A DNA stretch of 64,000 bases, from contig NZ_PIZV01000002.1 of the NCBI RefSeq assembly GCF_002835665.1, positions 62,001 through 126,000 of the forward strand. Reading direction: 5' to 3'. Within the stretch, counting starts at the first letter, position 1; every line of letters begins with the position of its first letter. Below the pieces are notes generated by a model. The model saw only the letters and a program-made list of their open reading frames with translations, was not told the origin of the DNA and ran no database searches. A program made the translations under genes and the position numbers. This stretch comes from Chryseobacterium sp. PMSZPI. GTDB taxonomy: Bacteria; Bacteroidota; Bacteroidia; Flavobacteriales; Weeksellaceae. Positions 59,241 to 63,222 of this stretch are shown here, in pieces.

Positions 59241-62093
59241 TTATATATCCAGATCTACAGAGTTTAATCTTAATGAATTCAGAATGACCGATAATGAACT
59301 TACGCTCATAGCGGCGGCGGCAATCATTGGAGATAAGAGAATTCCAAAAAACGGATACAATAATCCTGCCGCAACCGGAATTCCCAATACATTATATATA
59401 AAAGCAAAGAATAGGTTTTCTTTAATGTTTCCAAGAAGTTTTTCACTTAATAGTTTGGCTTTTGCTACTCCTAAAATATCTCCTTTTAGCAGAGTGATTT
59501 CAGCACTTTCAATAGCGACATCCGTACCGGTTCCCATGGCAATTCCGATATCTGATTGAGCGAGAGCAGGAGAGTCGTTGATTCCATCTCCGGTCATTGC
59601 TACAATCTTACCTTGTTGTTGGAGTTTTTTTACCTCGTTCAATTTATCTTCAGGAAGACAATTGGCTTTAAAATGTTTGATTCCCAACTCATCGGCTACG
59701 GCTTTAGCGGTATGCTCGTTATCTCCGGTCATCATTACAATATCAATGCCTTCACTCATTAGTCGTTCCACTGCTTTTTTAGAACTTTCTTTAATTTTAT
59801 CTGTAAAACTGATGAAGCCAAGTACATTTTGATCCTCTGCAATATAGGAAATCGTATGAGCTTTTGATTGTACTTCTATGGCTTTCTGTTTCAACGTATC
59901 CGGAATTTGAATTTGATGAGAAGTCAATAAACTTTCATTGCCCAGATAAGCTGTTTTACCATTGATATTTCCTTTTACTCCTTTTCCTGAAATGTTCTCA
60001 AACTGATCTACTTTTTCGGCCGGAATATTCTCCTCTTTGGCTCTTTTGATAACAGCGTTGGATAGAGGGTGTTCAGAATTTTGATTCAATGAAAAAGCTA
60101 ATTTTAAAATCTGATTCTGATCTTGATTGTTTACTGTTTCTATATGTTCTACAGAGGGTTTCCCTTCTGTTAATGTCCCGGTTTTGTCTGTAATCAGAAC
60201 ATTGATTTTATTCATTTGTTCAAGAGCTTCTGCATTTTTAATCAAAATACCATTTTTGGCACCTTTACCAATTCCTACCATTAGAGACATAGGTGTTGCA
60301 AGTCCAAGTGCACAAGGGCAGGCAACAATCAAAACTGCTACAGCATTTACAAAGGCAAATAAACTTCTTTTCCCTTCAGGTCCAAAAAACTGCCATGCAA
60401 TAAAGGTAAGTACAGCAATAAGAATTACGACCGGAACAAATACTTTAGAGACTTTATCTGTTAGTTTTTGGATAGGAGCTTTGCTTCGGCTGGCCTCATT
60501 CACCATTTTAATAATTTGTGAAAGAAGAGTTTCATCACCTACCTTTTCAGCTTTCATGATGAATACCTGATTTCCATTAATGGTTCCTGAGGATACTTTG
60601 TCGTCAACATTTTTTTCAACCGGTACGGGTTCACCGGTAATCATGCTTTCATCAACAATAGAATTTCCTTCTGTAATTTTACCATCGACCGGAATTTTCT
60701 CACCGGGTTTTACTTTGAGTAAATCACCAATTTTTACCTGGGAAAGCAAAACTCGTTTTTCTTCACCATTTACAATAAGATTGGCTTCGTCAGGGGAAAG
60801 GTTCATCAACTCCTTGATGGCATTTCCTGTTTTTTTATGAGCGGCAGCTTCCATCAACTGACCTAAAATGACAAGCGTGAGAATCACACAGACCGCTTCG
60901 AAATATAATGGGATTTCGTGATTATGACCGCGAATTTCATGGGGAATAATATCCGGAAAGGCTAGCGCTACAATGCTAAAAATAAAAGCGGCGGCTACTC
61001 CTAATGCAATAAGACTGAACATATTGAGGTTCCATGTTTTGAAAGATATCCAGCCTCTTTTTAATAAAAACCAGCCGGAATAAAACATAACCGGAAGGGT
61101 TAAAGCAAGCTCTATGAATCCTTGAATCTGATGTGAAAAAGGAAAATCAATAAACATTCCTCCCATTGAAAGAATAAAAACAGGAATGGTAAATGCTAAA
61201 GAGATAAAAAACTTCCTTTTTAAAATAGTATAGGTTTCATCTTCCTCATCGTCACCACTGTCGGGCATTCTTACGAGATCCATTCCGCAAATTGGGCAAC
61301 TTCCCGGTTCATCACGAATGATTTCCGGATGCATCGGGCATGTGTATTTTGCCGTTTTCTTTTCAGGGTATTTTACAAGGTCCATTCCGCAGACCGGACA
61401 ACCAACATTAGAGTCATACGTTTTATCTCCTTCACAATACATTGGGCAATAATATTTGCCTGCCATTTCATCGGTTACTTTAGGAGCTTCATGATGATGG
61501 TGATTATGACTATGTGAGTGTGAATGATTATGATGATGAGAATGACTGTTTTTTACAAGGTCTTCGGTAATCTTTTCCAGATGCATATGGCAAACCGGGC
61601 AATCGCCTTTTTCGTTATAAACCTTGTCACCTTCACAAAACATGGGGCAATAGTATTTTCCGAGACTATTTTTAAAGCTTTCAGGAAGGTTGGTGGCTGA
61701 ATAGGCAGGTTTGTGGTTAGGATCTTTTGCCAGTTTCTCTTCAATTGGAACTAAGTACATATTGCATACAGGGCATCTTTCACCTTGTTTGAAATATACT
61801 TTATCGTCTTCGCACTCCATGGGGCAATAATATACGGAAGATGGAGATACCCGATCCTGAGGTTTTACAAAAGCTTTTTCAGGGCTATTGGGATCTTCGA
61901 GTTTATATTTTCCTATTTCTGCTAAGGCATCATTTAGAACAGAAAGTTGTACTTCATGATCAGAAGTAATCGTTGCTGTATTATTTTCCAGATTGACATC
62001 GGCCGTAACTCCGTGAACACTGTTTAGTTTTTCCGAAATTTTTTTCTGACAACCTGAACAAGTCATGCCAAGTATTTTATACTGTTGTTCCAT
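59241..62093 (-). CDS. copA: Copper-type P1B ATPase with four CPM metal ribbons
   Basis: A 950-residue inner-membrane metal pump. Residues 1-65 are an HMA domain (GMTCSGC, Cys12 and Cys15). Four heavy-metal-binding ribbons follow: CPM at 90, 149, 216 and 252, each paired with a CPxC-x-M hairpin at 107, 165, 232 and 266; the first three read YYCPM.CE.DK and the last YTCPMHPE. A His-rich linker (about 184-201) lies between ribbons two and three. The P-type core is complete: [14 protein letters not shown] at 592-594, phosphorylated Asp636 in DKTGT, SEHPLSN and [10 protein letters not shown]. It exports Cu+ (or Ag+) with ATP. An in-frame start 30 bases upstream is ignored. The DUF72 gene follows at 7 bases. 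Confidence 0.95.
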
Positions 62094-62117
62094 GATTCTT
62101 AAATTTATACTACAAAT

Positions 62118-62130
62118 TTCCAAAATGGAA
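62118..62130. promoter_or_regulatory. Palindrome upstream of the copper ATPase gene
   Basis: TTCCA-AAA-TGGAA, a 13-base inverted repeat 25 bases before the copA ATG. Its place between the AraC-type gene and copA suits an operator. No binding protein is shown. Confidence 0.35.
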
Positions 62131-62178
62131 TGCTAAGGTTGTTATAAATTTAAGGATAATAGTTATAGAATTTGGGTG

Positions 62179-62269: not shown

Positions 62270-62830
62270 CTATAGGCTGTCTAATGATTTTCTATTATGG
62301 TCTTTCAGTTTTTTAAACTCGGTAGGAGTGAATCCTGTAGTATTGCGGAATTGAGTAGATAGATGTTGAACACTTTTATAGCCCAGTTTTCCTGCGATTT
62401 CGGTAAGATTGAATTCGTTATACAAAAGAAGTTCTTTTACTTTTTCAATTTTTTGAAGAATGAAGAATTGTTCCAGAGTAATGTTCTCATTCTGGGAAAA
62501 CGTCTTTGAAAGTGAACTGTAATCTTTATGAAGTTTTGAACTTAAAAATTCAGAAACGAGAAAGTCTTCATCAATATCAAGTTCTCTGATTTTAACAATA
62601 ATCAGATTTTTTATTTTTTCAACAAGCTGATGGGTGGAGTCCATAATTCTTTCGAAGCCGGTATCCAATAATTGCTTTTCTATCGATCCCATTTTTTCGG
62701 GAGCTACTTCGGATTCTGTTTCAACTTCACCTAGTATAACAGACTTTATTTTGACATCAGCTCTGTTAAAAATATCTTCAACTGCAGCAATACATCTACT
62801 GCAGACCATATTTTTTATGAAAATTTTCAT
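62270..62830 (-). CDS. AraC-type regulator with an N-terminal HMA-like metal-binding domain
   Basis: A 186-residue regulator. Residues 1-65 look like an HMA domain, beginning KIFIKNMVCSRCIAAVEDIF, with Cys10 and Cys13 in the M-x-C-x-x-C metal site, and ending in KQLLDTGFERI. Residues about 85-180 are an AraC/XylS double helix-turn-helix (ENITLEQFFILQKIEKVKELLLYNEFNLTEIAGKLGYKSVQHLSTQFRNTTGFTPTEFKKL, in part). Fusing a metal-binding domain to AraC suggests direct sensing of Cu+ or a like metal, and the neighbouring copper ATPase is the obvious target. Its start overlaps the upstream thioesterase stop by 4 bases, so the two are translated together. Confidence 0.88.
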   Translation of the reverse strand: MKIFIKNMVCSRCIAAVEDIFNRADVKIKSVILGEVETESEVAPEKMGSIEKQLLDTGFERIMDSTHQLVEKIKNLIIVKIRELDIDEDFLVSEFLSSKLHKDYSSLSKTFSQNENITLEQFFILQKIEKVKELLLYNEFNLTEIAGKLGYKSVQHLSTQFRNTTGFTPTEFKKLKDHNRKSLDSL

Positions 62831-63222
62831 AGTTCGCTGTTTAGTCTGTCTTTTACAAATTCAATTTTGGTTTTTCCGTGTGGAGCAGGGTTTCCATCGG
62901 CATCCAGATTTACCATTACGATTCTTTCAACAGTAATAATAGTTTGGTGAGTCATTTTATTTCGCACATCACATCTTAACGTAATGGAAGAAGATCCAAA
63001 TTGAATGGCCTCAATTCCGATTTCTATAATATCTCCTTGTTTGGCTGAACTTACGAAATTGATTTCTGAAATAAATTTAGTTACCACTTTTGTGTTTTCC
63101 AATTGGATAATAGCATATAAAGCTGCTTCTTCATCAATCCACTGCAACAATCTTCCTCCAAAAAGTGAATGATTAGGATTCAAATCTTCGGGTTTTACCC
63201 ATTTTCTAGTATGATAGTTCAT
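62827..63222 (-). CDS. Acyl-CoA thioesterase (YciA/hotdog family)
   Basis: A 131-residue hotdog-fold enzyme that hydrolyses acyl-CoA thioesters in the cytosol. LNPNHSLFGGRLLQWIDEEAALYAI has the Asn-His and the catalytic acid on the long helix (WIDE) of the YciA/BACH group, followed by KFISEINFVSSAKQGDIIEIG and TIITVERIVMVNLDADGNPAPHGKTK. Length is typical. It is the first gene of a leftward pair with the HMA-AraC regulator (ATGA overlap), an unexpected pairing for a fatty acyl enzyme and a metal sensor. Active as a hexamer in the family. Confidence 0.9.
   Translation of the reverse strand: MNYHTRKWVKPEDLNPNHSLFGGRLLQWIDEEAALYAIIQLENTKVVTKFISEINFVSSAKQGDIIEIGIEAIQFGSSSITLRCDVRNKMTHQTIITVERIVMVNLDADGNPAPHGKTKIEFVKDRLNSEL

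Follow-up and report, generated by a model that had tools for sequence, protein, structure and literature searches.

A metallochaperone-like domain joined to an AraC-type regulator: a probable one-component copper sensor in Bacteroidota

How cytoplasmic copper is sensed in many Bacteroidota is a question that the usual families of regulators do not answer. In the genome of Chryseobacterium sp. PMSZPI (90% complete) no CsoR-family protein (PF02583) was found, and the best match to the CueR model stops at 27.9 bits, with nothing CueR-like above 28. The locus studied here raises the question of whether this work could be done by a single protein of another make, in which a metallochaperone-like domain is joined to an AraC-type DNA-binding domain. 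Our analysis suggests that it could: the regulator is real and functionally coherent, a one-component copper sensor of the AraC family whose mode of action is probably that of CueR, although it is no CueR itself.

Architecture of the regulator and its locus

The regulator is encoded on the minus strand of the window (by which we mean the whole 64-kb stretch of DNA that was analysed), at 62270-62830, stop codon included. Its open reading frame gives a protein of 186 aa whose N-terminus, MKIFIKNMVCSRC, contains M8, C10 and C13, and which is characterized by Pfam (HTH_18 and HTH_AraC) and by an AlphaFold2 model. The order of genes on this strand is a 4HBT acyl-CoA thioesterase (62827-63222, minus strand, Pfam 4HBT), the regulator, and, after a gap of 176 bp, copA (59241-62093, minus strand, starting at 62093), the predicted target. 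copA encodes a P1B Cu(I)-type ATPase of 950 aa with one HMA domain, four HMBD stretches and a CPC motif, recognized by Pfam and passing the copper-translocating NCBIfam model ATPase-IB1_Cu (588.5 bits for a cut-off of 397). Its four HMBD stretches (YYCPM..CPVC) are found, together with a His-rich stretch, between the HMA domain and the membrane core. The first-pass annotation had placed copA next downstream of the regulator and had pointed to an odd pairing with the thioesterase by an ATGA overlap; both observations hold, the 4-nt overlap being kept in 79 of the 84 loci that have a thioesterase next door. Thioesterase and regulator are probably cotranscribed. An adjoining thioesterase is seen in none of the 89 loci outside the window's genus whose regulator has the cysteine pair (hereafter CxxC members); the gene does adjoin the regulator in L152, a survey locus of the same family. 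The pairing looks lineage-specific, and steady expression of the regulator may perhaps be all that it provides.

The N-terminal domain (residues 1-63, 62642-62830, minus strand) had been described at first pass as an HMA-like module, with Cys10 and Cys13 (codons at 62801-62803 and 62792-62794, minus strand), joined directly to an AraC domain. Taken as a single sequence, the window protein does not match Pfam HMA (PF00403) at E<=1, let alone at its curated cut-off, so that profiles and structure are needed for an HMA assignment; in 12 of 46 relatives the same model matches weakly (best 0.0042). When a profile of the first 67 residues of 23 relatives was searched against PDB sequences, 16 were retrieved at E<=0.05, and all 16 are copper or heavy-metal HMA proteins. 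The best matches are ATP7B chains (3.5e-10 and 1e-6), with E-values that apply to the whole chain and sum several weak domains, and the one-domain CopZ is matched at 2.1e-4. Profile-profile comparison (hhalign) with 11 HMA sequences, ten of them CopZ-like and one a CopA domain, gave a probability of 97% (E 4e-11).

The AlphaFold2 model, built on 46 sequences, has a mean pLDDT of 89.6 and the order βαββαβ followed by the HTH helices. In VIA-align comparisons its N-terminal fold matches Atx1, GolB and CopZ at Z 7.4-8.0 (Atx1 2xmv: Z 8.0, 2.1 Å, 58 aligned residues; GolB 4y2i: Z 7.9). ACT-type domains tie with HMA in this score (Z 7.3-8.3), and fold comparison alone would therefore not decide; Foldseek gives HMA chains no E-value better than 0.08. 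At the level of sequence, the MxCxxC loop expected of HMA domains after strand 1 is present (M8, C10, C13), and no variation is seen in NMVCxRC (N7-M8-V9-C10, R12-C13) or G58-F59 across the 46 aligned CxxC relatives. Judged from profiles and a predicted structure, the domain is HMA-like in fold and in sequence, and the outcome that would have refuted the first-pass annotation, an N-terminal region that does not fold as HMA, did not occur. We call it HMA-like, a remote homologue and not a member of Pfam HMA, because the PF00403 cut-off is not met.

The rest of the protein (residues about 66-178, 62297-62635, minus strand) is an AraC-type double helix-turn-helix. HTH_18 matches residues 97-174 at 52.4 bits (cut-off 33.6) and HTH_AraC matches at 42.4 bits (cut-off 26.6), and VIA-align of the C-terminal domain gives Z 14.5 both to MarA and to the C-terminal domain of AraT. 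The AraC/XylS criterion of a tandem helix-turn-helix at the C-terminus is met, and the HTH models matching the window protein are all of AraC type, none being a MerR or CueR model. The fusion claimed at first pass is thus borne out by profiles, the AlphaFold2 fold and the Pfam HTH matches.

Copper neighbourhood, operator and promoter

The family, Cys-less members included, is found in 142 of 296 Bacteroidota genomes and in 80 of 139 genera (profile search, E<=1e-25). Neighbours were studied in 96 loci outside Chryseobacterium, 77 from the Bacteroidota survey (mostly one per genus) and 19 others, leaving out L207 (no regulator match in the gene calls) and L229 (same genus). A copper-type gene cluster lies within five genes of 74 of the 89 CxxC members, in 73 of these 74 downstream and on the same strand. 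A P-type ATPase lies within five genes in 50 of the 89, and 19 further loci have only an HMA-membrane protein or an ATPase fragment of the same cluster as the P-type ATPase. A survey of this kind had been set as a check on the first reading, and linkage to copper-type genes came through it; the refuting outcome, a lack of copA in most neighbourhoods of homologues, did not occur. These counts are not independent, as the loci are related; also, the copper clusters were chosen by the analyst from sequence clusters, and the RND cluster is not copper-specific, although the 74 of 89 are unchanged without it. No copper cluster lies near the remaining 15 members, which were listed and inspected; in one of them, L184, the copper clusters overlooked a HYCMG protein and an RND pump.

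Several loci (L172, L173, L188, L230 and L108-L118) encode proteins of about 240 aa in which an HMA-like N-terminus is combined with a membrane part, a conserved CACLG motif lying close to the end. Their gene often follows the regulator directly or with one other gene between, and they perhaps have a role in copper handling. The regulator is also matched in 66 plasmid records, 29 of them over at least 80% of the query; 36 of the 66 are from Rhizobium, and a match beyond the HTH is not established for these. Plasmid neighbours were inspected for three copies only: one lies near an 'SO_0444 family Cu/Zn efflux transporter' with DUF3347, another near a heavy-metal ATPase with a cupredoxin, and the third near a 'bilirubin oxidase' gene.

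More directly than adjacency, a predicted operator found before copA and before a second copper operon supports a regulator of copper genes. Together with the copper linkage, it speaks for the one-protein copper regulator proposed at first pass, with copper binding and activation still inferred. The upstream regions of copA in Chryseobacterium orthologues share a near-invariant block (AATTCTATAACTATTATCCTTAAATTTATAACA in the window), followed by a -7-like TTTG and the start codon. From this footprint and from genome scans we predict the copA operator TATAAC-N15-TATAAC, a direct repeat of 21-bp period (62141-62167, minus strand), which is the sole such repeat in the 64-kb window at <=1 mismatch. 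The -7-like element of the copA promoter, read from sequence as GAAATTTG (62113-62120, minus strand), carries its TTTG at 62113-62116, 24 nt after the second half-site.

Outside Chryseobacterium, TRTAAC-N15-TRTAAC occurs at <=1 mismatch in 30 of the 73 loci with a linked downstream copper gene, the search covering the 220 bp ahead of the target, or ahead of any gene between target and regulator. By contrast, each of the other 18 spacings (12 to 30), tried with the same half-site, occurs in 0-4 of the 73 loci; at <=2 mismatches the 21-bp repeat is present in 46 of 73 and the other spacings in 2-20. The repeat is absent at <=1 mismatch from 43 of the 73 linked loci. Also, the half-site was first read in Chryseobacterium, and its R degeneracy was adopted after TATAAC had been seen in other lineages, so the figure of 30 is not wholly blind. 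Among 43 sites from other lineages (those at <=2 mismatches with enough sequence downstream), 31 have a TTTG at an offset of 24 or 25 nt from the second half-site, any other offset being seen at most once. The promoter consensus of Bacteroidetes has TTTG at -33 and TAnnTTTG at -7, with about 19-21 bp between them. Set against it, the second half-site, some 20 bp ahead of the -7 box, would occupy the expected -33 position, in the layout of a class II activator.

We are fairly confident that the protein is a one-component copper sensor-activator, which would bind Cu(I) via Cys10 and Cys13 and then activate copA and a multicopper-oxidase operon from the 21-bp repeat. Its architecture, conserved Cys pair, linkage, operator and trans target are established from sequence, whereas binding of Cu(I), binding of DNA and activation are inferences, without biochemical or expression data. 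The same operator and targets could also serve a repressor released by copper, as CsoR and CopY are according to PMC9240420, an alternative that we consider unlikely. A repressor could act at the expected -33 position too, and the downstream half-site overlaps it. However, that half-site replaces the TTTG element at -33 instead of flanking one, and a layout of direct repeats is typical of AraC-family activators. The sensor-activator is probably not itself autoregulated, since at <=1 mismatch the operator lies upstream of none of the thioesterase-regulator pairs (83 measurable of 84 loci) and of none of the 89 CxxC regulators.

Predicted regulon and the Cys-less branch

The bare 27-bp repeat was tried as a genome-wide marker and rejected as not specific, with 5 matches against 10 in reversed controls in the window's own genome. 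Specificity arises only when TTTG is added (3 matches against 0). Of the three sites, one lies before copA and one before a Cys-less paralogue, while a different contig carries the third, in front of a HYCMG-DUF3347-multicopper-oxidase operon. The oxidase of this operon has 888 aa, with HMBD stretches and Cu-oxidase domains, and the predicted trans site before the operon is matched without mismatch in 29 of 30 congeneric loci. In 18 of these 30 a spacing of 24 is also met at <=1 mismatch, because a stretch TTTAAC lies just ahead of the TTTG. In the window's own genome, the operon with its HMBD stretches is found in L297 (5556-11651, contig C56), where a TonB-dependent-receptor-like gene, named by eye, lies just upstream on the same strand, with the predicted operator between both.

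Across 40 congeneric genomes, operator plus TTTG gave 102 matches against 8 in reversed controls, with at least one match in 36 genomes. Counted by eye from the sequences, the 102 comprise 26 copA sites, 32 of the oxidase operon, 23 of the paralogue, 15 of an alcohol dehydrogenase, 5 of a TonB receptor and 1 other, the dehydrogenase and receptor genes having been read in two loci each. For the dehydrogenase class these loci are L282 and L294, in which TATAAC-N15-TATAAC-TTTG lies between another AraC gene and an alcohol-dehydrogenase-like gene; the class, found in 15 congeners, is without AATT flanks, and its relation to copper is unclear. In L269 and L270 an operator-like match lies upstream of a TonB-dependent-receptor-like gene (a class seen in 5 congeners), which is possibly a metal-uptake receptor. 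At the scale of the phylum there were 60 matches against 25 in controls; genomes with a match are 36 of the 142 having the family and 3 of the 154 lacking it (Fisher 5e-10), against 14 of 142 and 10 of 154 for the reversed pattern (p 0.39). The former p-value is overstated, as the genomes are related and the genes behind the matches were not inspected.

The CxxC could be a thiol redox switch or the sensor of another soft metal (Ag, Au, Hg, Zn or Cd) and not of copper: HMA-fold proteins bind several metals, GolB, a gold protein, is among the nearest folds, and one plasmid copy adjoins a transporter annotated as Cu/Zn. We give this little credence, as the linked ATPase passes a copper-translocating model and the products of the trans operon include a multicopper oxidase along with a DUF3347 protein. 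Silver and gold could nonetheless act as gratuitous inducers.

A Cys-less branch of the family exists and keeps the N-terminal domain. Copper-type genes lie within five genes in only one of its seven members (versus 74 of 89 CxxC), and that single case, L219, rests solely on a generic RND pump. In a wider set of 116, left after 3 of 119 proteins had been dropped by length for the tree, copper linkage is seen in 83 of 99 CxxC members versus 1 of 17 Cys-less ones. In a quick tree a single branch (SH-aLRT 86) has all Cys-less members on one side, so one change accounts for them. Cys loss and copper unlinking make one independent pair, and were dropped as independent evidence. The retention of the domain in this branch implies uses besides metal binding and, with the similar fold scores of ACT-type domains, leaves room for a fold relic serving dimerisation or partner docking, copper being sensed elsewhere. 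We hold this to be improbable, in view of the invariance of NMVCxRC and G58-F59 in the CxxC relatives and of a copper linkage that goes with the Cys, albeit through one evolutionary event. As for an AraC regulator of unrelated function lying beside copA by chance, AraC proteins are indeed numerous in these genomes, but linkage across many genera, the operator and the trans site make this hardly credible.

Among the neighbours of some Cys-less members are response regulators and a hybrid kinase. The 21-bp site is present upstream of the Cys-less gene itself in 6 of 17 cases (three of them from a single orthologous group), versus 0-2 for other spacings; this branch may have retained the DNA code and may control its own expression. 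In L024 (6042-6635, minus strand), L039 and L040 the Cys-less paralogue is followed by a response-regulator-like gene, and an operator-like site lies 268-280 bp upstream of the paralogue's start.

Proposed mechanism and known systems

In the copper sensor-activator that we favor, the HMA-AraC protein would be made, probably, without feedback, and Cu(I) would be bound by Cys10 and Cys13 of the chaperone-like domain, a step that is inferred. The loaded regulator would then activate copA and, acting in trans, also the HYCMG-DUF3347-multicopper-oxidase operon. Both would be driven from TRTAAC-N15-TRTAAC, an operator that rests on comparative genomics, with binding and activation left as inferences. 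Class II activation offers the parallel: lying about 20 bp ahead of the -7 box, the downstream half-site would stand in for the -33 element. The predicted regulon would couple export of cytoplasmic Cu(I) with periplasmic copper oxidation, as that of CueR does, by means of an unrelated protein. We lean, if only slightly, toward a broader proposal, in which a metallochaperone-like domain plus an AraC activator make up a one-component copper sensor that is widespread in Bacteroidota, has no name so far and stands in for CueR or CsoR in many of the genomes, reading a 21-bp direct repeat and maybe taking its copper from CopZ or CopA, HMA to HMA; a single loss of the Cys pair would then have given rise to non-metal regulators, some beside phosphorelay genes, with the same DNA site kept. 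A chaperone fold as the sensor of a transcription activator is a simple design, in which copper could pass from one domain to another of the same kind. With the protein family defined and an operator and two target operons in hand, the question of copper sensing becomes directly testable, and a copper-inducible promoter for Bacteroidota could follow.

We found no description of the HMA-AraC architecture in the open-access literature searched; most subscription journals lay outside its scope, and absence from print is not shown. Nor is it described in the available parts of PMC9240420, PMC10710014 and PMC4938975, the second of which reports, by annotation, CusR and CusCBA in Chryseobacterium oranimense. 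No CueR above the curated cut-off of 147 bits was found in 99 Bacteroidota genomes, while 1 of 14 control genomes passes; in 13 of the 99, MerR proteins reach 107-135 bits, below the cut-off but not far from it, and some share a genome with the HMA-AraC family, so CueR-like sensors may coexist with it. The CsoR family is rarely found together with HMA-AraC (5 of 51 Bacteroidota genomes with the family versus 27 of 48 without), 21 of the 27 genomes belonging to one family; PF02583 includes non-copper sensors too.

Among known systems, CueR of Escherichia coli, a MerR-family protein, is a cytoplasmic one-component Cu(I) sensor that controls a P1B Cu(I) ATPase together with a multicopper oxidase. 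The predicted targets of HMA-AraC are of the same two kinds, yet the regulator has no MerR domain, its sensor domain being HMA-like and its DNA-binding domain of AraC type, and its operator is a 21-bp direct repeat upstream of the promoter and not, as for CueR, an inverted repeat inside it. CsoR performs one-component copper sensing in other bacteria, with an unrelated fold. The CopZ and Atx1 chaperones and the HMA domains of Cu-ATPases share the βαββαβ fold and the MxCxxC loop, with GMTCxxC where the regulator has NMVCxRC, and ATP7B also has a GF ahead of the last strand, as here; unlike CopZ and Atx1, the regulator's domain is fused to a DNA-binding domain and is unmatched by Pfam HMA. Finally, AraC/XylS regulators (AraC, MarA, ToxT and Rns) have the same C-terminal double HTH (Z 12-14.5), and the araI1-I2 sites of AraC form a direct repeat of 21-bp period next to the promoter, which the predicted operator resembles in period and place, without binding data; but where those regulators carry a cupin or ligand-binding barrel at the N-terminus, this one carries a metallochaperone-like domain.
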